From: a virus
IMG/VR virus record: IMGVR_UViG_3300006753_004675
Span: 1-64,000 of that record
Reading direction: 5' to 3' (one strand)
Length of the DNA stretch: 64,000 nt
Shown in pieces: positions 8,704-43,092 of the stretch. Position 1 is the stretch's first letter. Every line of letters starts with the position of its first letter. A program made the position numbers and the translations under genes. Below the pieces are notes generated by a model, which saw nothing but the letters and a program-made list of their open reading frames with translations, had not been told where the DNA came from and ran no database searches.

Positions 8704-10254
8704 ATGATAAGTGAAATAATTGAAGATGTCTTGACTGATGAAGCGGAGATTTTTTTACATGATCTTATAAGAGAATTTAGGGATCAACTGGGTGACCTTT
8801 TACGCAGCAGGGATGGAAGACAAAATTTTTATGATGTAGGATATCTTCCGGACTTCTCACCTGATACAGCAGATACAAGAGACGAGAAGTGGAAAATATC
8901 TGAGATTCCTAGTTGCTTACTTGATAGAAGAGTTGAGATAACCGGTCCAACAGATAGAAAAATGGTTATAAATGCATTAAATTCTGGTGCAAATGTTTTT
9001 ATGGCAGACTTCGAAGATTCACTTTCTCCAACGTGGGAAAATATCATAAATGGTCAGTTAAATTTGAAGGATGCTGTAAGAGAAACAATATCTTATGAAC
9101 ATCCAACAAAGGGAACATATAGACTTAATTCAGATCATGCTGTTTTATTTGTCCGCCCTAGAGGGCTTCATTTAAAAGAATCTCACTTTCTTGTAGACGG
9201 TAATCAAGTTCCAGCTTCACTTTTTGATTTTGGGCTATTTATGTTTCATAATGCTAAAATTCTTTTGGAAAGAAAAAGAGGTCCATTTTTCTATCTTCCT
9301 AAACTAGAACATCATTCTGAAGCTGGGTGGTGGAATGACGTATTTAACTGGACACAGGATAGACTAAATATTCCTAGAAAATCAATTAAGGCAACAGTTC
9401 TAATTGAAACTCTTCCTGCAGCATTTCAAATGGATGAGATTCTTTATGAGCTTAAAGATCACTCTGCGGGTCTTAACTGTGGAAGATGGGATTATATTTT
9501 TAGCTTCATAAAAACAGTTAGAAATCATAACGAAAGAATCTTTCCTGATAGAGATCAGGTCACCATGACGTCTCACTGTATGAAATCTTATTCTGAGCTT
9601 TTAGTTCATACATGTCACAAAAGGGGTGCACATGCTATGGGAGGAATGGCTGCGCAGATTCCAATTAAAAACGATGAAGATGGAAATAGTGCAGCTATCA
9701 AAAAGGTTAGAGAGGACAAACTTAGGGAAGTTCTCTTAGGGCATGATGGAACATGGGTCGCTCACCCAGGACTAATACAGGTGGCAAAGGAAATTTTTGA
9801 TTCGTATATGCCAAATTCAAATCAGATAAATAATTCAAAAGGACACAAGGCCTCTAGGGAAGATCTGCTTAGGGTGCCATTAGGATCTATATCTGAGAAA
9901 GGTTTGTATCATAACCTAAGTGTTGGGATTCAATATATTGAATCTTGGCTAAGAGGAAATGGATGTGTTCCTCTTTATAATTTAATGGAAGATGCAGCTA
10001 CAGCAGAGATTTCAAGAACACAGGTGTGGCAATGGAGAAAACATAATTGCTCTGTAGAGTCTGGTGAGATAATAGATGTACACATGATCAATAGAAAGAT
10101 TTCAGAAGTCCTCGAGAACATAGAGAGAGAAGTTGGATCAGATAGATTTAATAGCGGAAAATTTGATGAATCTGTGAGTTTATTTAGAGAAATGGTATTT
10201 TTAGATGAATTACCTAAATTTTTAACAATAGATGCTTATGAACATATAAGGTGA
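8704..10254 (+). CDS. aceB: Malate synthase A (glyoxylate shunt)
   Basis: Condenses glyoxylate with acetyl-CoA to malate. Family signatures appear in order: MADFEDS (100-106), RPRG with Arg151, IETLPAAFQMDEILYEL with Glu235, and GLNCGRWDYIFS with Asp263 for Mg/glyoxylate binding. The C-terminal block NLMEDAATAEISRTQVWQW carries the expected catalytic aspartate (Asp430). At 516 residues it is near the 533 of E. coli AceB and looks intact. The next gene encodes isocitrate lyase, so together they form a complete shunt. The base composition is like that of the neighbours, so any transfer is not recent. Confidence 0.95.
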   Translation: MISEIIEDVLTDEAEIFLHDLIREFRDQLGDLLRSRDGRQNFYDVGYLPDFSPDTADTRDEKWKISEIPSCLLDRRVEITGPTDRKMVINALNSGANVFMADFEDSLSPTWENIINGQLNLKDAVRETISYEHPTKGTYRLNSDHAVLFVRPRGLHLKESHFLVDGNQVPASLFDFGLFMFHNAKILLERKRGPFFYLPKLEHHSEAGWWNDVFNWTQDRLNIPRKSIKATVLIETLPAAFQMDEILYELKDHSAGLNCGRWDYIFSFIKTVRNHNERIFPDRDQVTMTSHCMKSYSELLVHTCHKRGAHAMGGMAAQIPIKNDEDGNSAAIKKVREDKLREVLLGHDGTWVAHPGLIQVAKEIFDSYMPNSNQINNSKGHKASREDLLRVPLGSISEKGLYHNLSVGIQYIESWLRGNGCVPLYNLMEDAATAEISRTQVWQWRKHNCSVESGEIIDVHMINRKISEVLENIEREVGSDRFNSGKFDESVSLFREMVFLDELPKFLTIDAYEHIR

Positions 10255-10263
10255 GAAACTTTA

Positions 10264-11493
10264 ATGATGAATGATAAGAAAAACACAATAAGAACGTGGA
10301 GTCAGTCAGATGTCGATAAGCTTAGGGGTAGAGTAAGAATAGAGTACTCTTTGGCAAAGGAGGGATCAGAAAAATTATGGGATCTTTTGCTTTCGAAAGA
10401 AAGTGTTTCTGCATTAGGAGCGCTGACTGGTAACCAGGCTGTTCAACAAGTTCGAGCTGGGCTTAAGGCTATTTATCTTTCTGGGTGGCAGGTCGCAGCA
10501 GATGCTAATCTGTCGGGTCATATGTATCCAGATCAGAGTTTATATCCTGCCAATAGTGTTCCAAGCGTGGTAAAGAGAATCAATCAGGCTCTTCAAAGGG
10601 CTGATCAGATTGAAAGCGTTGAAGGAGTTAGAAGCTGTGATTGGATGGTTCCAATTATAGCTGACGCAGAGGCTGGATTTGGAGGTCACTTAAACGCATA
10701 TGAGTTAATGAAAGCAATGATAGAGTCAGGTGCCGCCGGAGTTCATTTTGAGGATCAGCTAAGCTCTGAAAAAAAGTGCGGCCATCTTGGAGGAAAAGTT
10801 CTTGTTCCGACATCTCAATTTATTAAAACTTTAAAAGCTGCCAGGCTCGCATCTGATGTCATGGGTGTTTCTACAGTGCTTATAGCTAGAACTGATGCAA
10901 ATAGTGCTAAGCTTATGACATCTGATATAGACCCATATGATCATCAATTTATGTCAGGAGAAAGAACACGAGAGGGTTTCTATAGAATTACTGGCGGAAT
11001 AGATCAGGCTATATCTAGAGGTCTAGCATACGCTCCGTATGCTGATCTTCTTTGGTGTGAAACTTCCACACCAGATCTTGATGAAGCTAGAAAGTTTGCT
11101 AATGCTATTCATGAAAAATATCCTGGAAAACTACTTGCATATAATTGCTCTCCATCGTTTAACTGGAGAAAGAATCTTGACGAAGTTACTATATCAATAT
11201 TTCAAGATGAGTTGAATAAGATGGGATATAAGTTTCAATTTGTAACACTCGCAGGGTTTCATTCCCTTAATCACTCTATGTTTGAATTATCTAGAAAATA
11301 TAAGGATTATGCGATGAGTGCATATGTAGAGCTCCAAGATAATGAGATGATGTCTGAGCACTTTGGGTATACAGCAACAAAGCACCAGAGAGAGGTTGGA
11401 ACAGGATACTTTGATGCAGTTAGAGAGATAATTAGTGAAGGTGAATCTTCTACTTTAGCTTTAAACGAATCCACAGAAGAAGATCAGTTTTAA
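10264..11493 (+). CDS. aceA: Isocitrate lyase (glyoxylate shunt)
   Basis: Cleaves isocitrate to succinate and glyoxylate. The catalytic signature KKCGH is at 170-174 with the active Cys172. SGWQVA (73-78), [10 protein letters not shown] (132-141), ARTDAN (209-213) and NCSPSFNW also match AceA. Length 409 is slightly below E. coli AceA (434), with no missing core motif. It lies 9 bases after malate synthase, so glyoxylate made here would be used by the upstream enzyme. A palindrome at 11513-11534 ends the pair. No regulatory kinase/phosphatase (aceK) is present. Confidence 0.96.
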
Positions 11494-13085: not shown

Positions 13086-13931
13086 ATGATTATCACAAAA
13101 AGAGCACTTAGATCTCTTATATCAGATATTGTATTGAGAGAATCCAAATATTTTGGAATGTCTATTTCAGACGTGCTATCATTTTTAGAAGGGTTTAGAG
13201 ATAATACGTGGATTTTTTTCGATACAGAGACATTAGGGTTTAATCCAAAATATCAACAATTAACTGAAATAGGAGCTGTTGCTGTAAGCCCGGGAAATTG
13301 GAATACTGATCCTAAAATTCTTGGAACATTTAATGAGAAGGTAAAGCTGGAGCCTAAAAGTATTGAAAGACTATCCAAACATAAAGAGATGCCTCCTGAA
13401 GAGATAAAAGCTCGCCGCGGGAGGATGACTGCTCCTGAGATTCTTTCAATGACTCGCTATGGAGAAAGAGGGCGTGAGTATTTTGAAGAGCAGGATGTGA
13501 TCGATGGATTCTTAGATTTCGTGGATTCATTTTCAAATCCCGTACTGGTGGCACAAAATGCATCGTTCGATATGAAGTTTGTAGCTGTTAGATCGGATAG
13601 ACAACCAGATAGATATCCAGTAATAGATACTATGAGAATAATGCAATTATTTTTAATACCTCTTCTTAGAACACTAAAAGATCAGCATGATGATCAGTCT
13701 GCAAGAGAGTTTTTAGAAAAGATTAAAAAGGGAAAATATTATTCTGCCTCTATGGGTGTCGTATCGTCTGCCTATGGAATATCTACGGATGAGTGGCACA
13801 ATGCTCTTGCAGATGTAAAGATGCTAATGAAATTATTGAGTCATGTTGTTAGAACATTGAGAGAAAATCCTGATATTGATATTAGAGATGAACATGCACG
13901 GGCTGCCTCTAGGCAAAAACGCAGGCGATGA
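13086..13931 (+). CDS. DEDDh 3'-5' exonuclease with N-terminal delivery-like segment
   Basis: DnaQ-type exonuclease. Active-site residues: FDTET with Asp46 and Glu48, NASFD with Asp162, and HNALADV with His238 and Asp243. It could proofread for the DnaE-type polymerase at 20052, or degrade DNA on its own. The first 20 residues (ALRSLISDIVLRES) form a basic amphipathic segment ending in L-R-E, like several virion-type proteins here, which may mark it as a packaged enzyme. The C-terminus is basic (ASRQKRRR). It begins 45 bases after the glycosylase. Confidence 0.85.
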   Translation: MIITKRALRSLISDIVLRESKYFGMSISDVLSFLEGFRDNTWIFFDTETLGFNPKYQQLTEIGAVAVSPGNWNTDPKILGTFNEKVKLEPKSIERLSKHKEMPPEEIKARRGRMTAPEILSMTRYGERGREYFEEQDVIDGFLDFVDSFSNPVLVAQNASFDMKFVAVRSDRQPDRYPVIDTMRIMQLFLIPLLRTLKDQHDDQSAREFLEKIKKGKYYSASMGVVSSAYGISTDEWHNALADVKMLMKLLSHVVRTLRENPDIDIRDEHARAASRQKRRR

Positions 13932-17616: not shown

Positions 17617-18417
17617 GTGAAGCTATTAAAAGAATACATTAGAGAAATGCTACTCGAAGGTCGAAAGACACAGTCTAAAAGACTGCATTCATTTACCAAC
17701 ATGATAACATCGGATATTATGAGAGTTATTCATGGAAAGGAAACAAGACTTCCTTCGTCTGCCCTAACTAGAGATGATTTTTCTTATGATGTAGGTGGCG
17801 ACGAGACATCTGAATTTGTTGAAATTGTTGCCGGAAATATTCCACTAAGCATGGATTGGAAGTCACAAGGTTTTTCACATGACATATCTGATGATATAGT
17901 TGATACAACTGTCTATATAGTGGTTCAAGTTAATAGGGGCACAGAAGATTTTAATGTGAGCGGGGCTGACAAGGATGTGACGGGAATCCATGACATAGGA
18001 TTATATGTCTCAGTAGATATTCCTTCAGATTTGAATTTAAGTGAGTACTCTAAGCTAAGAGATGAGGTATCAAATACTGTGAGACATGAGCTAGAGCATA
18101 TAACGCAGGGTGAGGGATCCGATCAAATGTTTATAGCTCACGGAAGAGATGATGATTATTATGATTTTATAAACTCTCCCAGCTCTGTGGAGGGAGATTT
18201 TGCCAAATATCTTTTAGAACCAAAAGAGATTCCATCTCATGTAAGAGGGTACATTCAGAATTCTAAAGATTTGAAAGATTTTAATATGAGAATTTATATA
18301 TTGTTAAATAGATATCAGGATAAAGGTCTTATAAGCGACTATGAAAAGAATATTATCTTTGATACGTGGAAAGATTGGATGAGAAAAAAAGTTCATCAAA
18401 AGAAATTTAATGCATAA
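17617..18417 (+). CDS. HExxH metallopeptidase-like protein with delivery-like N-terminus
   Basis: 266 residues. RHELEHITQ (about 165-173) is a zinc-metallopeptidase HExxH motif, and LEPKEIPSHVRGY about 40 residues later offers a third glutamate ligand, an arrangement seen in several phage and bacterial metallopeptidase families. The substrate is unknown. The start (LLKEYIREMLLEG) is a basic amphipathic segment ending L-L-E, like T4 capsid-targeting peptides, so it may be packaged. The start is GTG; ATG 17607 nearby is in another frame and soon closes. Ribosome site weak. Confidence 0.6.
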   Translation: MKLLKEYIREMLLEGRKTQSKRLHSFTNMITSDIMRVIHGKETRLPSSALTRDDFSYDVGGDETSEFVEIVAGNIPLSMDWKSQGFSHDISDDIVDTTVYIVVQVNRGTEDFNVSGADKDVTGIHDIGLYVSVDIPSDLNLSEYSKLRDEVSNTVRHELEHITQGEGSDQMFIAHGRDDDYYDFINSPSSVEGDFAKYLLEPKEIPSHVRGYIQNSKDLKDFNMRIYILLNRYQDKGLISDYEKNIIFDTWKDWMRKKVHQKKFNA

Positions 18418-18478: not shown

Positions 18479-18919
18479 ATGAAGGCATATATTGCTAGTT
18501 CTTGGTTCACACCTGACGCATTTGAAGAAGTTGAAATGATTAAAAAGACTTTAACAAAGAATGAATTTGGATATTTTTCACCAAAAGATTTTTTTGTCTG
18601 TCCCCCAACAGCTGATCTTCAAACACAGAAGGATACGTTCGAAGGAAATGTCAAGCACATCCTTGGAAATGATTTTGTAATCTGTAACACACGTGACAAA
18701 GATATGGGAAGCATCTTTGAAGCAGGAGTCGCATACAATTCAAATACGCCGCTAGTGTATTTTTGTGCAGGCCTGCCTGAAGGAGCTACGTTTAATCTCA
18801 TGCTGGCACAGTCAGGTGTCAAGGTTTGCACATCTTTTGATGATCTCGATGATTATCTATCACGGTGCAAGGAGTCTGGTGAGCTTCTATTTGAACCGTA
18901 TTATGGAAATATTGAATGA
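18479..18919 (+). CDS. Nucleoside 2-deoxyribosyltransferase-like protein
   Basis: 146 residues with the Rossmann-like fold of the family: KAYIASSWFTP start, FYFSPKDFF-like strand, a catalytic-type region KDMGSIFEAGVAYNSNTPLVYF (about 77-98) with the glutamate in FEAG, and NLMLAQSG. These enzymes move deoxyribose between bases or hydrolyse nucleosides. In T4-like phages related proteins sit in nucleotide salvage. Good Shine-Dalgarno GGAG. Its stop overlaps the glutamine synthetase start by 4 bases (ATGA), suggesting translational coupling. Confidence 0.75.
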   Translation: MKAYIASSWFTPDAFEEVEMIKKTLTKNEFGYFSPKDFFVCPPTADLQTQKDTFEGNVKHILGNDFVICNTRDKDMGSIFEAGVAYNSNTPLVYFCAGLPEGATFNLMLAQSGVKVCTSFDDLDDYLSRCKESGELLFEPYYGNIE

Positions 18920-19980
18920 CAAAAAGTGGTCTAGTAAAGCTAAAGCTTGAGTATGTCTGGATAGATGGATTCAAGCCATGGGGTCTTAGGTCTAAGGTAA
19001 GGGTTCATACTTTACCTGAGTCTGATTTTTTAAAATTAAGAAATGATCTTGATCATAAGGTGTTTCCTGAGTGGGGGTTTGATGGATCATCCACCGGCCA
19101 GGCAAGCGGATCTGATTCTGACTGCTTATTGTTACCAGTGAGAGTGGTTCCAGACGCTGTAAGAGGCGATAGCCTGGCATTCGTTGTACTGTGCGAGGTT
19201 TTGAATGGAGATGGTAGTCCCCATATTACGAATAATAGAAGTGATTTAGAGAAGATAGACGGGAAAACTCACGAATCAGAATCGTGGTTTGGAATTGAAC
19301 AGGAATACACGGTTATAAAGAGTGAAAGACCTCTTGGGTTTCCAGAGGGCGGATATCCAAAGCCTCAAGGAATTTACTACTGTAGTGCTGGCGGGGATAG
19401 ATCATTTGGTCGTGACATATCTGATGATCATATGAATGCGTGTCTATGGGCAGGACTGGATATAACGGGCACAAATGCTGAAGTAATGCCTGGTCAGTGG
19501 GAATACCAAATAGGAGGTCCAGGTGTGGGTCCTGTTGATGTATCAGATCAGCTATGGATCTCTAGATGGTTCCTGCTAAAGATATCAGAAGCTTATGGAC
19601 TAACAGTTACATTTGATCCAAAGCCAATGATGGGCGACTGGAATGGAGCCGGATGTCATACTAACTTTAGCACAGGGAAGATGAGAGCTCCCGGCGGAAT
19701 AAAATATATAGAGCAGGCATGTAAAAAAATTGGAAACAATATACAGAAACATTTAGATGCATACGGCGATGGATTAGAGCTAAGGCTTACAGGATTGCAT
19801 GAAACATGCTCGTATAAAGAGTTTAAATGGGGTGTTTCAGATAGAACAGCTAGTATTAGAATACCAAGACATGTGAACAATGATGGATGTGGGTACCTTG
19901 AAGATCGTCGTCCCAATTCTAATTGTGACCCATACAATGTCACGCGTATTATTCTTGAAACAGTTTGTCTAGAAGATTAA
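18916..19980 (+). CDS. glnII: Glutamine synthetase, type II (eukaryote-like)
   Basis: Makes glutamine from glutamate, ammonia and ATP. At 354 residues it is the short GSII form, not the 450-residue bacterial GSI. Motifs in order: LEYVWIDG, EWGFDGSSTGQA (beta-grasp), WFGIEQEYT with metal ligands, EVMPGQWEYQIGG, NGAGCHTNFST (ATP site), ETCSYKEFKWGVSDRTASIRIPR and GYLEDRRPNSNCDPY. All look intact. GSII lacks the adenylylation site, so the enzyme would escape the host GlnE control of GSI. Coupled to the deoxyribosyltransferase by an ATGA overlap. Confidence 0.95.
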   Translation: MTKSGLVKLKLEYVWIDGFKPWGLRSKVRVHTLPESDFLKLRNDLDHKVFPEWGFDGSSTGQASGSDSDCLLLPVRVVPDAVRGDSLAFVVLCEVLNGDGSPHITNNRSDLEKIDGKTHESESWFGIEQEYTVIKSERPLGFPEGGYPKPQGIYYCSAGGDRSFGRDISDDHMNACLWAGLDITGTNAEVMPGQWEYQIGGPGVGPVDVSDQLWISRWFLLKISEAYGLTVTFDPKPMMGDWNGAGCHTNFSTGKMRAPGGIKYIEQACKKIGNNIQKHLDAYGDGLELRLTGLHETCSYKEFKWGVSDRTASIRIPRHVNNDGCGYLEDRRPNSNCDPYNVTRIILETVCLED

Positions 19981-36952: not shown

Positions 36953-38254
36953 ATGAATTCGGAATCTTTTTTAAGAATTCTTATAAGAGAGATAAATCAT
37001 ACTCGAAAGGTGCTGCCTGAGTATGGTTCTCAGGAACACCTTGAAGAGCTAGATAGAATTTTAGATGATATTCAAAATCTAAAACAGACGCTAAAGAAGG
37101 GCCCTAATAGACACAAGAATAGAAAAGAAGTGAATCAGCTTCAAAGTGCTGTCCAGGCTCTTAGGTTTCTTAGAAGAAGAGCTCATAAAGAAGGTATAAA
37201 GAGTGGCCTTATTAAGGAGCATCTTTATTCTAAGTTTCATTTATTTGAAGGCGGTCTCAAAGCTCCGCACTTAACAGGTCACGTGAACCTTAATCAAGAG
37301 ACAGTTGCTGCTGCCATAGATGTCTATAAAAAAGTAATGGAAATGTGGAATGAACATCTTAGTTCAGATAACATGAAGAACGTTAGTGTAATAGGGCCAG
37401 TAGGGTCTTCTGCATATTATCTTAAGGATGAACCAGGAACTGAATATGGAGATGTGGATTTTCTTGTTTCCTTTCCAGTAAAAACTGATGATACAATGGG
37501 ACCTGCAGATATTAGAAAAGCAGAAAATGAAGCGAAAAGAAATTATGAAAATTCACTTAGAGATTTTCTAAACACTTCAGTTGACGTTGAAGATTATGTC
37601 AATACAGCTGCTTCAAATAAGGGATCACCGTTCTTATTGATCGTGCGGCTACCTAGCGGGGACCATGTTCAGGTGGATACAATCGTAACATACCCACAAT
37701 ACTCTGATCCCGGGGAAGAAGAAGAGTCTCAGTGGATGCCGTATAGATGGATTCCTGAACAAGGGTTCAAAGGATATACTATAGGAAATCTCTATATGGC
37801 ACTGGGAAATTATTTTAATATGTCAATAGGTGATAGAGGAGTTACTGCTCGTGTGGTAGGTGATCAAAGAGTTTCATCTCGAAAGACTAGTGCTGATCTT
37901 GTGATGATAAGCAAGAATATTCGAACATTTCTTAGAGACATAGCTAGAGAAGTTGCAGGAGAAGACATCGCAGAAGATGATCTATTATTAAGATACCCTG
38001 GAGTAAATCCAGATAATATTAAAATAAGTGACCTTGCTAATGGAATAAAAGGTCTTGCACTAACATTGGGTAATTTAGAAATTATAAATTCTCCTAAAGT
38101 AATGCTAGATTCTGTATTTGAATCATACAAGGAGGGTCTTCAAAGAAATGTTAAAAGTAAGCTTTCGAAAGGTCTTGATAAAGAAAGTCATAACAAGCTT
38201 TTAAATTTAAATGATAAAGTTTTAGGCATAGTAAAATCAGTATTTGAGTCGTAA
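36953..38254 (+). CDS. Polymerase-beta-fold nucleotidyltransferase-like protein with delivery-like N-terminus
   Basis: 433 residues. The start FLRILIREINHT resembles capsid-targeting segments (I-R-E). Residues 20-70 are a coiled coil. The nucleotidyltransferase core has GPVGSSAYY (148-156), GDVDFLV with Asp167/Asp169, and VQVDTIV with Asp242, the three metal-binding acids of the pol-beta superfamily (poly(A) polymerase, CCA-adding, OAS-like). The rest is helical. The substrate is unknown. It starts a cassette with a phosphoesterase, a HxGH nucleotidyltransferase and a ligase/nucleotidyltransferase fusion. Confidence 0.72.
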   Translation: MNSESFLRILIREINHTRKVLPEYGSQEHLEELDRILDDIQNLKQTLKKGPNRHKNRKEVNQLQSAVQALRFLRRRAHKEGIKSGLIKEHLYSKFHLFEGGLKAPHLTGHVNLNQETVAAAIDVYKKVMEMWNEHLSSDNMKNVSVIGPVGSSAYYLKDEPGTEYGDVDFLVSFPVKTDDTMGPADIRKAENEAKRNYENSLRDFLNTSVDVEDYVNTAASNKGSPFLLIVRLPSGDHVQVDTIVTYPQYSDPGEEEESQWMPYRWIPEQGFKGYTIGNLYMALGNYFNMSIGDRGVTARVVGDQRVSSRKTSADLVMISKNIRTFLRDIAREVAGEDIAEDDLLLRYPGVNPDNIKISDLANGIKGLALTLGNLEIINSPKVMLDSVFESYKEGLQRNVKSKLSKGLDKESHNKLLNLNDKVLGIVKSVFES

Positions 38255-38262
38255 TATAAACA

Positions 38263-38901
38263 ATGGATTTTTTCACATCAGATCTACATTTTGGTCATTT
38301 TAATGTAATTAAGTGGTGCAATAGACCTTTTTCATCTGTTGATGAGATGAATGAGGAACTTATAAAAAGATGGAATGAGACCGTAAAAGATACAGACACA
38401 GTGTATGTTGTTGGGGATATGTGTCTATGTAGATCTAATATCGCGGAAACCTATGTTAAAAGATTGAATGGGTATAAGATATTAATAAAGGGAAATCATG
38501 ATCGAGGAGAAAAAACAATGCTCAAAATGGGATTCGATGAATTTCATAAAAAACTTACGTATGAGATGCCAGACGGAAGAAGAGCATTGATTCAGCATAG
38601 GCCCGTTTCCAAATGTCTAATAGGGGATCATGATCTTTTAATTCATGGTCACATACACATAACAGAGAATTTTAAAGATAGAGTTAATGTTAGCTGTGAT
38701 ATGTGGGATTTTAAACCCGTTTCTATAGAAGAGATTACGATCTTAGGCCTTGATAAAATTAATGACATTGATGCAGTAGACATTTCTTTTGACGGCAATA
38801 GAGTTATTATAAATGCAGATATCACAACTGAAAATTTTTCTGGTGTGGTAGATCATATTTATACTCAGATAATTGATATCTGGCCTGGAGGCAAAAAGTG
38901 A
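38263..38901 (+). CDS. Calcineurin-like phosphoesterase
   Basis: 212 residues. FTSDLHFGH (4-12), VVGDMCL (49-55), IKGNHDRG (74-81), an IQHRP motif near 110 and LIHGHIH near 126 give the usual two-metal site of small bacterial and phage phosphoesterases. Between nucleotidyltransferases, it could remove an end phosphate or a 2',3'-cyclic phosphate before ligation; that is inference. It overlaps the next gene by 4 bases. Ribosome site weak. Confidence 0.8.
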   Translation: MDFFTSDLHFGHFNVIKWCNRPFSSVDEMNEELIKRWNETVKDTDTVYVVGDMCLCRSNIAETYVKRLNGYKILIKGNHDRGEKTMLKMGFDEFHKKLTYEMPDGRRALIQHRPVSKCLIGDHDLLIHGHIHITENFKDRVNVSCDMWDFKPVSIEEITILGLDKINDIDAVDISFDGNRVIINADITTENFSGVVDHIYTQIIDIWPGGKK

Positions 38902-39632
38902 AGATAGGAATTTTTGCAGGGGGCTTTAAACCTTTCCACACAGGTCACTTTGGAAAGGTTGCTCTTGCTCTTGAGGAAAATGATAAAGTATATCTTTTTT
39001 ATGGTGTCCAGAGTGAGAAAGCTAAAAACCCCACTATGAGAAAGATAGGCTCCAGAGAATTTACGCCCAGAATGTCAAAGAGAATCTTTGACATTATTAA
39101 GCCTGCTCTTGAGAGAGAGTATGGAGATAGAATACGAGTTTTTGATGTGCATAGGCCAGTTGGCGCTGTCGTAGACAAGATACGCCAATTAAAGGACGAC
39201 CCATTAGAAAAGCTCAAGGTGTATGGAAGAATCGAAGACTTGAGAAGATACTATATCAACAATAGGCACCTAATGAGAGACGTGCAAGATCTTTATGATA
39301 GCGGCGTGCTAGAGTTTGGAACCATATCCCCAAATGAATCAGAGGGGCTATCTGCAGAGGAGCTTTCAGATCTTGAAGTAGATAGAATTTCAAAAGCATT
39401 GAGTGGAACCTATCCAGAAGCATCTGACGAGGAATTAAGAGATTATTCTGGTGTAAGTGCTACGGCAGTTAGAAACATGATAGATTCTAAAGATGTAGAC
39501 GCCTTAAAGAGATATCTTCCTAACTTTTTATCTTCTGAGGAAGAGGATCAAATAATAGACGTGCTTTTAGAAAGAGATGTGCAGGCAGAAGCATATCTCA
39601 GATACTTAATACGTGGAATCATTAGAGGATAA
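38898..39632 (+). CDS. HxGH nucleotidyltransferase (cytidylyl/NMN-adenylyltransferase superfamily)
   Basis: 244 residues. GGFKPFHTGHFGK (8-20) is the HxGH motif of nucleotidyl transfer, and YSGVSATAVRNMI (about 186-198) is the second nucleotide-binding motif, as in NMNAT or CoA adenylyltransferase. The C-terminal 50 residues are extra and end with AEAYLRYLIRGIIRG, a basic amphipathic segment like those at the N-termini of neighbours. Substrate unknown; NAD repair (NMN adenylylation), useful to an NAD- or ATP-dependent ligase, is one idea. Confidence 0.75.
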   Translation: MKIGIFAGGFKPFHTGHFGKVALALEENDKVYLFYGVQSEKAKNPTMRKIGSREFTPRMSKRIFDIIKPALEREYGDRIRVFDVHRPVGAVVDKIRQLKDDPLEKLKVYGRIEDLRRYYINNRHLMRDVQDLYDSGVLEFGTISPNESEGLSAEELSDLEVDRISKALSGTYPEASDEELRDYSGVSATAVRNMIDSKDVDALKRYLPNFLSSEEEDQIIDVLLERDVQAEAYLRYLIRGIIRG

Positions 39633-39633
39633 G

Positions 39634-42600
39634 ATGGCCATATTACCAGTTCATAAGCAATACATCTCAGTAGCTGCAAAAATTGTCGCAGAACAGATAG
39701 CTTCTAAGAGCGATGGGCCTGGCTCAGAGTCACACATATATAATATCTATGAACAGCTAGGAATGCCACTCTCTGACATAGAAGAGATAATGGACGCAGC
39801 TCTTGCAGGGCGGCTAGAGAATGTTCAGGAAAAGGTTGACGGACAGAATATCACGTTCACAGTTGTCAACGGTGTTGTTCAATTTTTCTCCAAGATGGAT
39901 CTCAATGATCAAAGGAGCAGAGATCGTGCAAGAGATAGGATATTAAGAGGAGATGGAGCGACACCAGACGATATAGCTAGAAAATATACAGATGATAAAG
40001 GAATGGGTGCACTAAGGGAGACGTATACAATGGCATATGAAGCGCTCACTCCAATAGCGTCAAAATATTCAGATTCTTTATTTCAAAATGGAAACGTTGT
40101 AGTTGTTTCATCTTTGGCAACTCCTAGAAATCCCAATACTATTTTGTATGAGGAGGATAATTTTATTTTTATAAAGCCTATAGCTCTTCAAGAGGGAACA
40201 TTTGTTGATGAGTCTGCATACTCGAATTTTTTAAGCGACGCAGAAAAAGAAAAAGAAAGCGTTTTCAATATGAGCAGTGTTCCCACAGCAAAGCTGATAA
40301 AGGAGCTTGAAGAGGATGACGATAAAATCGAAGAGCTCAAGTCAGACTTTAGAGATGTGGTAGGTGAAGCAGGTCTTTCTGTTGGTTCAGATACTGTTGG
40401 TGATTATGTTCTTGAAAGAGTTGAGGATCTAATATATTCTAAGTATAAGTTTATACCTGATGATATGGTAAGGCCTGTTGCTCTTAGATTTGTTACAGGG
40501 AGGGGTGCTGTTGCAAATGCTCTTAAAAAATCTATTTCTTCAGATGACTATAGGAAGTATCAAGATCTGGATAAAAGAAAGTCACAGATAGTAGATGAGG
40601 CAATAATTCCTCTTGAAGAGATAGTACAGCGGCTAGGAGTTATGGTTGCCGACAGGCTTGATCTTGCACTAAGGGCAACAAACTCTAATGAATTATTATC
40701 TCTAGTAAAAACAGTACGATCTGAATTTGAAAGAGGCGCTAGCTTTATTGATAATAGCATGGATCCACAAAAGGCAAAGCGTGTCTCTGAGGGTATCAGG
40801 GTCGCTCTTGAAAGATTGAAGTCAAATGAAGATCTCTTTAGAACTGCAACTGAGGGCATAGTCTTTACATGGAAGGATGGAAAGACATATAAGCTCACTG
40901 GTTTATTCACACCCATTAATAAGCTAAGAGGATTTTTTGCATATAGTGGAGCACAATCACCTTCCCATCCAGAGACATCTGAGAGTGAAACAGTTAGAGA
41001 GAGGGTTCGGAGAAGATGGAAAAAGCATCAGCTAGTAGAAGGTGGGTCGGCATTTAAAGATTCCTCTGGTAGTGTTCTTACAAGAAAGGAAAGGATACCT
41101 AGAAGAGATGTAGATATAATATTGAAGTCATTTGAAGATGAGGTTCTTAAACCTCTTGGAATTAATTACATGCCAGTAGGAAGTACGGCCACCAACACAG
41201 GTGCTGTGGGTGACATAGACATCGCTGTTGACATAGCTTCAAGAAATGTTCTTGCAGATGTTCTAATGGGCCACATAGATAGGGAAAAGGTTAAAAAATT
41301 ACCTGGATTGGTTGCAGTGATGTTTAAGGTGCCGGACTCAGATCCTGAGGAGTTTGTTCAGATCGACGTGGTTCCAAGCTCTAATATATCAGACACACAG
41401 TGGCTAATGATGGGGGCACAAGAAGGCGGGGTAAAGGGTGTTTATAGAAATCTTCTTTTAGCCTACCTGGCAAAGACTAAAAGCGACAAAGAGTCTAGTA
41501 CACTTCAGTCTGTTAAATATACGATAACATTTCCTGGCGGGCTATTAAAGAAGGTAAATGGGTCTGCTATTGGAGAAAGAGAACATGATCCCGACGTATT
41601 CCTGCCAGTTCTTGGATTTCCTAAAGATCTATCAAAGGATAATATTGAAAGCTTTGAGCAGCTAGTTGACTATATGAGGGGAGATCCTAGCATGTCAACA
41701 ATCCTGCCAGGGTTCAAGGACTATATTGATAATAATAGGTATTTAAGGAACTCAAACAAGATGATAAGTGATGAGGCTAAAATGGCCGCAGATTATATAG
41801 ATGAAAAATCACTAATGGAATCCATGATAAAAAAGAGAATCACGGAGCTACTGACAGAAGCAGAACAGTTTTCGCTGCCAGGTATTCTATCAGATCCCGA
41901 GCCTGGATCATCGGTGTCAAGGATCGATCACGCGTGGCTAAACGCTCACGCCGTAACAGATCCGCTATATACAGGTGGAAATGGAGAGGGAGGAGTTTTA
42001 CATCCAGCCGGGTTCAGCGGTCTAGCTCTTGGAATAAGAGAAAGCACTCAGCGAAACGATGGCGAGAGATTTGAAGATGGAATGGTCGGATATGCTGACG
42101 AGCTGGTAGAGCTGGGTGGGTATAATGCAGTCCCCCTTAAGAGAGAGGGGCTTCCTGGAACAGATTTATCACAGCTTGTAGAGAAGGGTGGAAAGGGAAG
42201 GACCTACGAGCTTAAGAAGTCAACACAGAATTCTCCGAATCTTATGCTCAATGCATCATTCCCAAAATCAGATCCAAATCACTATTATGTTTTTGTTGTA
42301 AATCTTCCAAATCTCCAGATTATGACGCGTGCGTGGGAACAGCTAGAGTCACAATCAGGCGGTGATTTAAATAAAGCATGGGCTGACTTAGAGGCAGAGG
42401 TTCAGAAAAGAGTAGACGTAGATCGTGAATTAACATTCTTTATAAACGATAGCAAAGCAAGAGATTCGGCTGCAGATGAGATTGAGTCTGGTGAAATTAA
42501 TCCCGATTCAGAATCTTCAGCTCTGGTGGTTCCCTTGGGGGTAATGTCATCAGCTCAGCGATTTATAAAGATGTACGAAGCATACGGAGAGTTAAATAAT

Positions 42601-43092
42601 ATTTCGAAAGAAGATGCACTTGATTACATGAAATCAAAGACGGGAAAAATTACATCTGGCTCTCTGAAAGGTGTAAGAACTGAGCTTAGGGCACAATACA
42701 GCGAGACTAAGTCGGGAGCAGCCGCCGGAACCCGAGGCGAATTATTCAAGAACGTTTTAGGAAATGTAAAGTTATGGGTTGTTCCAAGTAGAGATCTTAG
42801 GATCGAGATACTAAGCTCGAATGAAGCACTACGATCTGCAATTGATATGGAGACGGGTGAGCTTATTAAAGGCGGAAGGGAGGTGATTGCAGCAGCACTA
42901 AGGAGTGAGCTTACAAATCTTAAAATAGAGGATAAGATAGTTGAAAAGATTGCGCCACTAGTAGAGGATCAGGTGCTAGACGGTGTATCTCCATCTCAGT
43001 CCAAAGAAGACAAAGACCCAGCATTTGATATTAGACTTGGACTATTAAAGGTTAGGATAAGCCTAAAGATAGAGCCTCCAAAGGGTGTGTGA
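39634..43092 (+). CDS. Multidomain ligase-like/nucleotidyltransferase protein with internal cleavage-like site
   Basis: 1152 residues. (1) Residues 1-430 look like a covalent nucleotidyltransferase (RNA/DNA ligase): motif I KVDG at 67-70, EGIVF at 407-411 (motif IV) and KLTG at 420-423 (motif V). (2) 500-700 is a pol-beta nucleotidyltransferase: GSTATNTG (516-523), GDIDIAVD with Asp527/Asp529, and QIDVV with Asp578. (3) MIKKRITELLTEAEQ (about 732-746) resembles the delivery segments and contains L-T-E. (4) 750-1152 is unknown; YELKKS (Glu859, Lys861) could be part of a PD-(D/E)xK nuclease site, which is weak. ATG 39634 has AGAGGA before it. The combination suggests nucleic-acid end repair. 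Confidence 0.62.
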   Translation: MAILPVHKQYISVAAKIVAEQIASKSDGPGSESHIYNIYEQLGMPLSDIEEIMDAALAGRLENVQEKVDGQNITFTVVNGVVQFFSKMDLNDQRSRDRARDRILRGDGATPDDIARKYTDDKGMGALRETYTMAYEALTPIASKYSDSLFQNGNVVVVSSLATPRNPNTILYEEDNFIFIKPIALQEGTFVDESAYSNFLSDAEKEKESVFNMSSVPTAKLIKELEEDDDKIEELKSDFRDVVGEAGLSVGSDTVGDYVLERVEDLIYSKYKFIPDDMVRPVALRFVTGRGAVANALKKSISSDDYRKYQDLDKRKSQIVDEAIIPLEEIVQRLGVMVADRLDLALRATNSNELLSLVKTVRSEFERGASFIDNSMDPQKAKRVSEGIRVALERLKSNEDLFRTATEGIVFTWKDGKTYKLTGLFTPINKLRGFFAYSGAQSPSHPETSESETVRERVRRRWKKHQLVEGGSAFKDSSGSVLTRKERIPRRDVDIILKSFEDEVLKPLGINYMPVGSTATNTGAVGDIDIAVDIASRNVLADVLMGHIDREKVKKLPGLVAVMFKVPDSDPEEFVQIDVVPSSNISDTQWLMMGAQEGGVKGVYRNLLLAYLAKTKSDKESSTLQSVKYTITFPGGLLKKVNGSAIGEREHDPDVFLPVLGFPKDLSKDNIESFEQLVDYMRGDPSMSTILPGFKDYIDNNRYLRNSNKMISDEAKMAADYIDEKSLMESMIKKRITELLTEAEQFSLPGILSDPEPGSSVSRIDHAWLNAHAVTDPLYTGGNGEGGVLHPAGFSGLALGIRESTQRNDGERFEDGMVGYADELVELGGYNAVPLKREGLPGTDLSQLVEKGGKGRTYELKKSTQNSPNLMLNASFPKSDPNHYYVFVVNLPNLQIMTRAWEQLESQSGGDLNKAWADLEAEVQKRVDVDRELTFFINDSKARDSAADEIESGEINPDSESSALVVPLGVMSSAQRFIKMYEAYGELNNISKEDALDYMKSKTGKITSGSLKGVRTELRAQYSETKSGAAAGTRGELFKNVLGNVKLWVVPSRDLRIEILSSNEALRSAIDMETGELIKGGREVIAAALRSELTNLKIEDKIVEKIAPLVEDQVLDGVSPSQSKEDKDPAFDIRLGLLKVRISLKIEPPKGV

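Follow-up and report, generated by a model that had tools for sequence, protein, structure and literature searches.

Multi-domain proteins that are injected together with DNA have been described as the polyvalent proteins of phages and conjugative elements (Iyer et al., 2017, PMC5512222). These large proteins combine domains of unrelated kinds, among them pol-beta nucleotidyltransferases, ParB-like domains and zincins, are thought to enter with the DNA, are encoded near late genes in phages and are proposed to be processed by their built-in zincins. In T4, a 10-residue capsid targeting sequence leads proteins into the head, and gp21 cuts after Glu (PMC9026906), while in the RNA repair sets of jumbo phages a pol-beta nucleotidyltransferase accompanies an RNA ligase, as in the sets with RlaP (PMC7824862). 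The locus described here is best read as encoding a protein for end repair that would be delivered with the virion, a further variation on polyvalent proteins. Its largest product, like polyvalent proteins, unites at least two unlike enzymatic domains in a single chain. The survey, however, reports that its polyvalent 2H domains are not associated with RNA ligases, the parts of it consulted here do not describe the combination of ligase-like, HxGH and PolX-like domains, and processing would here occur through a gp21-type protease at L-x-E rather than through zincins (PMC5512222). Thus, where an earlier sequence-only reading held that the arrangement was not known from described systems, the arrangement itself does appear new, but the theme of injected multi-domain proteins had already been described.

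The window analyzed here, 64,000 nt in length, is a portion of an IMG/VR record of 69,886 bases, which is a fragment of a large uncultured phage with PolIII alpha. Other products read from the ORFs of the window include RecA-like, ribonucleotide reductase, GroEL and DnaK proteins. The window also contains a malate synthase gene (PF01274, 1e-110) adjoining an isocitrate lyase gene (PF00463, 2e-100) at 8704-11493, a glyoxylate shunt in a phage record, and a glutamine synthetase-like gene at 18916-19980 (PF00120, 1e-14). The four linked genes that had been noted at 36953-43092 were confirmed as ORFs at these coordinates, all on the plus strand: gene A (36953-38254, 433 aa), a pol-beta-type nucleotidyltransferase; gene B (38263-38901, 212 aa), a calcineurin-like metallophosphoesterase; gene C (38898-39632, 244 aa), an HxGH (HIGH) nucleotidyltransferase; and gene D (39613-43092), a fusion protein of 1159 aa from a GTG start or 1152 aa from the ATG at 39634, the start from which its residues are numbered here. 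PADLOC gave zero matches. D consists of a ligase-like domain, then a PolX-like domain and then a C-terminal region that, as judged from a motif, may be a nuclease, the last of these an addition to the earlier description.

The ligase-like domain of D (39721..40944, plus strand) carries motif I (K67-V-D-G), motif IV (E407-G, in EGIVF) and motif V (K420, in KLTG), with Ser160 at the position of motif III and a large helical insertion separating motifs III and IV. K67, D69, G70, E407, G408, F411, K420, T422 and G423 were invariant among 42 diverged sequences including that of the window, and this invariance argues that the ligase motifs are not due to chance. An AlphaFold2 model of D built with the 42 sequences was of high confidence for the ligase part (pLDDT mostly 80-97), moderate for the PolX-like domain and low for the C-terminus. 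When the model was compared with the PDB using Foldseek, T4 Rnl1 ranked first (E 0.008, probability 0.89), followed by archaeal RNA ligases and Rnl2; the top E values were 0.008-0.1, with probabilities up to 0.90, and never fell below 0.001, partly because the query was the whole three-domain chain. Among the viral models of BFVD, phage proteins labelled cytidyltransferase-like ranked first (2e-18), followed by unnamed proteins and, from 4e-4 on, by RNA ligases. Alignment of the ligase-like family with an Rnl1 profile of seven sequences by hhalign paired motifs I, Ia and III (P 9e-4). A profile search of the PDB with the family gave no true match, and the domain is missing from Pfam, PHROGs and NCBIfam, where the only match for D was a sub-threshold one to RNA_ligase at motif I. 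Collectively, the model and motifs I, IV and V point to an RNA-ligase or covalent nucleotidyltransferase fold for the first domain of D, in agreement with the ligase assignment made previously from the motifs.

The more specific likeness to T4 Rnl1 held for the fold and for the profile alignment of motifs I, Ia and III, but not for the motif III Glu itself. This residue, which is Glu159 in T4 Rnl1 and essential for sealing there, is near-invariant in the wider family, but is Ser160 in the window and Gln in the three closest relatives (loci L085, L086 and L087); this clade of four keeps motifs I, IV and V. Given the loss of this Glu, ordinary RNA sealing by D is in doubt, and the steps that need it may be altered, leaving the predicted activity uncertain. 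Other features also set D apart from T4 RNA ligase 1 (RnlA), including the weak profile match, the helical insertion, the fused partners and the early end after motif V, as the family domain stops ~20 residues past this motif and the Rnl1 C-terminal helical domain is missing.

The predicted junction of the ligase-like and PolX-like domains, LVE469|GG at 41038..41043, is LSE|GG or IKE|GG in L085-L087. The second domain (41041..41856, plus strand) shows the GS...DxD...D palm pattern of the PolX or DNA polymerase beta superfamily, with Asp527, Asp529 and Asp578, and its GS...GD(I/V)D...Q(V/I)D signature is conserved in the three relatives. A profile of this domain matched African swine fever virus (ASFV) DNA Pol X (E 8.3e-4) and, more weakly, Pol lambda, and the L086 protein had a weak match to DNA_pol_B_palm (0.028), bearing out the proposal of a second pol-beta domain in D. 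The C-terminal region (41860..43089, plus strand) starts after LLTE|AE and contains a GTDLS..YELKKS stretch that resembles PD-(D/E)XK and may mark a nuclease; Pfam and the PDB gave no support, and the model is of low confidence here. L085-L087 have a different sequence in this place, with SDVYV..GIEVKL.

Gene A comprises a leader of residues 1-99 (36953..37249, plus strand), with an N-terminal LRILIREI segment and the end ..HLFE|GG, and a pol-beta-type nucleotidyltransferase domain (37250..38251, plus strand; GSS..GD167VD169..QVD242). The three Asp residues of this signature, recognized earlier, are kept in the L085 protein (42% identity), the sole full homologue found. Since Pfam and the PDB gave no match for A, its assignment is motif-based. 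Direct blastp of A against the PolX-like domain of D showed no real similarity, and profile comparison gave a short motif alignment and nothing more. A and D resemble the jumbo-phage sets in pairing a pol-beta nucleotidyltransferase with an RNA ligase-like protein, but differ in that neither matched RlaP in Pfam at E ≤ 1 and in that the constant partner here is the HxGH domain (PMC7824862). Searches of sequenced phages by tblastn with A and with the PolX and C-terminal regions of D returned nothing meaningful. Gene B, read previously as a calcineurin-like phosphoesterase, indeed matched PF00149 (2.1e-5), phrog_547 (2.4e-45) and PDB 1xm7 (6.8e-10).

Gene C, likewise in line with the sequence-only reading, carries HTGH and SATAVR, corresponding to the (H/T)xGH and SxTxxR motifs of NMN/NaMN adenylyltransferase. 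It matched phrog_395 (9.5e-6), the NMNAT/Nudix model NF003791 (9e-5) and PDB 2qjo (0.017), suggesting an NMNAT/PPAT-like protein with weak similarity to NMN adenylyltransferases; scores against the NMN/NaMN adenylyltransferase equivalogs were 12-22 bits, below curated cut-offs of 100-400. In a structure model of a relative (L103), the HxGH domain was confidently predicted and matched PPAT and NaMNAT.

We then examined how widely this arrangement is shared. By tblastn, the first 445 residues of D matched Microcystis phage Mel-JY01 and a 484-kb metagenomic phage, each of which encodes the HxGH and ligase-like domains in a single protein, and searching with Mel-JY01 reached a third record (462 kb); these three are the only sequenced phage records with the ligase-like domain. 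In IMG/VR, a scan with the Mel-JY01 sequence gave 304 relatives and a profile scan at least 510, from uncultured, largely marine viruses, unlike scans with whole D, its C-terminal region or its PolX region alone, which gave zero. Three matches in genome contigs, all MAG contigs, are probably binned phage. Of 164 loci examined, 43 cut at the contig start were left out. In 116 of the 121 informative loci the HxGH and ligase-like domains occurred together, with HxGH fused before the ligase-like domain in 90, fused after it in 20 and encoded next to it in 6. These numbers count loci and not independent events: all loci were picked via the ligase domain, a first batch starting from the HxGH-ligase fusion of Mel-JY01, and similar samples contributed many near-duplicates. 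The link is nonetheless seen in both domain orders.

Among the closest relatives, L085-L087 share ~50% identity with the D ligase domain and have kept the synteny of C and D. In L085, A and B are present and C and D are fused in a single 1439-aa protein; in L086 and L087, which lack B, C and D are present and A has shrunk to free-standing homologues of its leader (97-99 aa; L086:7810-8109 and L087:7792-8085) without the pol-beta domain. The conserved unit is therefore C plus D, with A and B optional, so that of the four-gene kit first proposed, the HxGH-ligase synteny survives and the four-gene unit does not. The comparison with T4 Pnkp finds no counterpart in this cassette, which has no Pnkp-like kinase, though a P-loop kinase is fused in the same polypeptide in 27 ligase ORFs of marine relatives, and a second or other type of pol-beta domain in 9.

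The sequence-only reading had also pointed to a delivery-like segment in several of the proteins. A position weight matrix (PWM) for LRxLIRExL, built from ten segments of other phages, gave 15 matches in the first 25 residues of the window genes compared to 2.1 in shuffles, an enrichment that supports the claim, although the test is not fully independent because the seeds include L085-L087 proteins homologous to several window genes. Enrichment was seen with the PWM alone, simple regular expressions giving none or weak enrichment. Such segments also sit between domains and at a C-terminus, and the top PWM match was the C-terminal segment of gene C, LRYLIRGIIRG (39597-39629, plus strand). One further window gene with such a segment at its N-terminus (13086-13931) encodes a DnaQ/RNase T-like exonuclease (PF00929, 8e-11).

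At the start of the ligase domain, (L/I)-x-E|GG is common: among nonredundant domains, Glu directly precedes GG in 45 of 50, and L or I occupies position -3 in 46 of 50. This motif could belong to the fold itself, but the window clade has x-x-E|Q ~10 residues further upstream. In linkers outside the ligase start, [LIVM]xE[GASQND] was enriched 1.8-fold, ~1.35-fold of which comes from Glu content, and the stricter [LI]xEG pattern showed no enrichment. A gp21-type Glu-specific protease (S77) was found in 12 of 24 records bearing the family, including most of the larger ones, and S78 in 0 of 24; in Mel-JY01, an isolate, the protease and the HxGH-ligase fusion occur in the same phage. The gp23 capsid proteins of eight of these phages have LLEG and L-x-E sites in the N-terminal region. 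The window record and L085-L087, fragments of 55-83 kb, gave no S77 or gp23 match, and the evidence tying the family to this protease therefore comes from relatives further away. The family resembles T4 internal proteins in its N-terminal helical segment, in the candidate cutting after Glu in L/I-x-E and in comprising enzymes that would be internal to the phage, as Alt is, but differs in that its packaging into the virion is proposed by analogy from sequence and in that the segments are also interdomain and C-terminal (PMC9026906).

We therefore favor, at a probability of about one half, a model in which a single polyprotein-like unit, made for packaging in the head, yields both C and D, is cut by protease and mends nucleic-acid ends on entry. 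The short amphipathic LRxLIRExL segments would direct these proteins to the core of the prohead, and cutting after L-x-E by the prohead protease would free the HxGH nucleotidyltransferase, the RNA-ligase-like enzyme, the PolX-like nucleotidyltransferase and the possible nuclease. These would enter the cell along with the phage DNA and process broken ends prior to phage gene expression by trimming, adding nucleotides, activating and sealing. The computed support consists of the identities of B, C and the first two D domains, the HxGH-ligase coupling, the synteny and the enrichment of the segments and of L-x-E; from these we infer packaging, cleavage, nucleic-acid repair and a counter-defence role. 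The substrate would more likely be RNA, given the ligase family, with DNA possible given the PolX domain. Overall, the C-D arrangement is real, conserved and largely undescribed, and the repair-kit idea, partly supported, is plausible.

The similarity of the second D domain to repair DNA polymerase X, together with PolIII alpha and other replication genes in the window and the neighbors of family members, many of them replication genes and SbcC/D and primase among them, would also fit a set made in the cell for ordinary DNA gap or break repair or for replication (ligase, PolX and phosphoesterase, with base-excision or LigD-like logic) and not delivered by the virion. We consider this unlikely, as the fold neighbors of the ligase-like domain are RNA ligases, the proteins carry targeting-like segments at termini as well as L-x-E junctions, and terminase adjoins several distant relatives (for example Mel-JY01 and LR756508), though none lies near D within the window. 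The resemblance of C and the family HxGH domains to NMNAT, NaMNAT and PPAT raises another explanation, NAD+ salvage or reconstitution against NAD-depleting defences, with the ligase-like domain as a partner nucleotidyltransferase. Phages do carry NadV-NadM/NadR (PMC9503650), but nicotinamide phosphoribosyltransferase (PF04095) occurred in 1 of 24 records only, the HxGH scores lie below the equivalog cut-offs and the pathway as described has no role for an RNA-ligase fold, making this improbable.

Two further readings concern the chemistry. The replacement of the motif III Glu by Ser or Gln in all four clade members, and the unlike C-terminal regions of the window and L085-L087, would be consistent with a domain that no longer seals, being a pseudo-ligase or activating ends for a different transfer (a cap-like adduct made with HxGH) while the PolX and C-terminal domains do the work; the Lys nucleophile and motifs IV and V, needless for a pure scaffold, are invariant in the clade, and we regard this reading as rather doubtful. 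Similarly speculative is that the constant HxGH and ligase-like pair carries out an undescribed two-step end chemistry, in which HxGH would make an activated nucleotide or cofactor adduct that the ligase-like enzyme would transfer to a broken or phage end. The pair would then be packaged in virions as a polyprotein cut by protease, and this chemistry would be common among marine phages that are uncultured.

If members of the family are packaged and are cut by the prohead protease, as in the favored model, phages would arrive with end-processing enzymes already made, for use against immunity that cuts nucleic acids. The ligase-like family is in any case unnamed in curated libraries, nearly missing from isolated phages and tied to one partner enzyme. 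A related combination without the ligase is found in Flavobacterium phage immuto, in a 907-aa protein annotated as NadR (L168:7119-9839) that has a pol-beta-like region and HxGH together with two HExxH stretches. Such fusions are reminiscent of polyvalent proteins (PMC5512222). In the window, the product of 17617-18417, which has an N-terminal LKEYIREML segment, a HELEH motif and no Pfam match, resembles by eye the C-terminal HExxH region of immuto_182.
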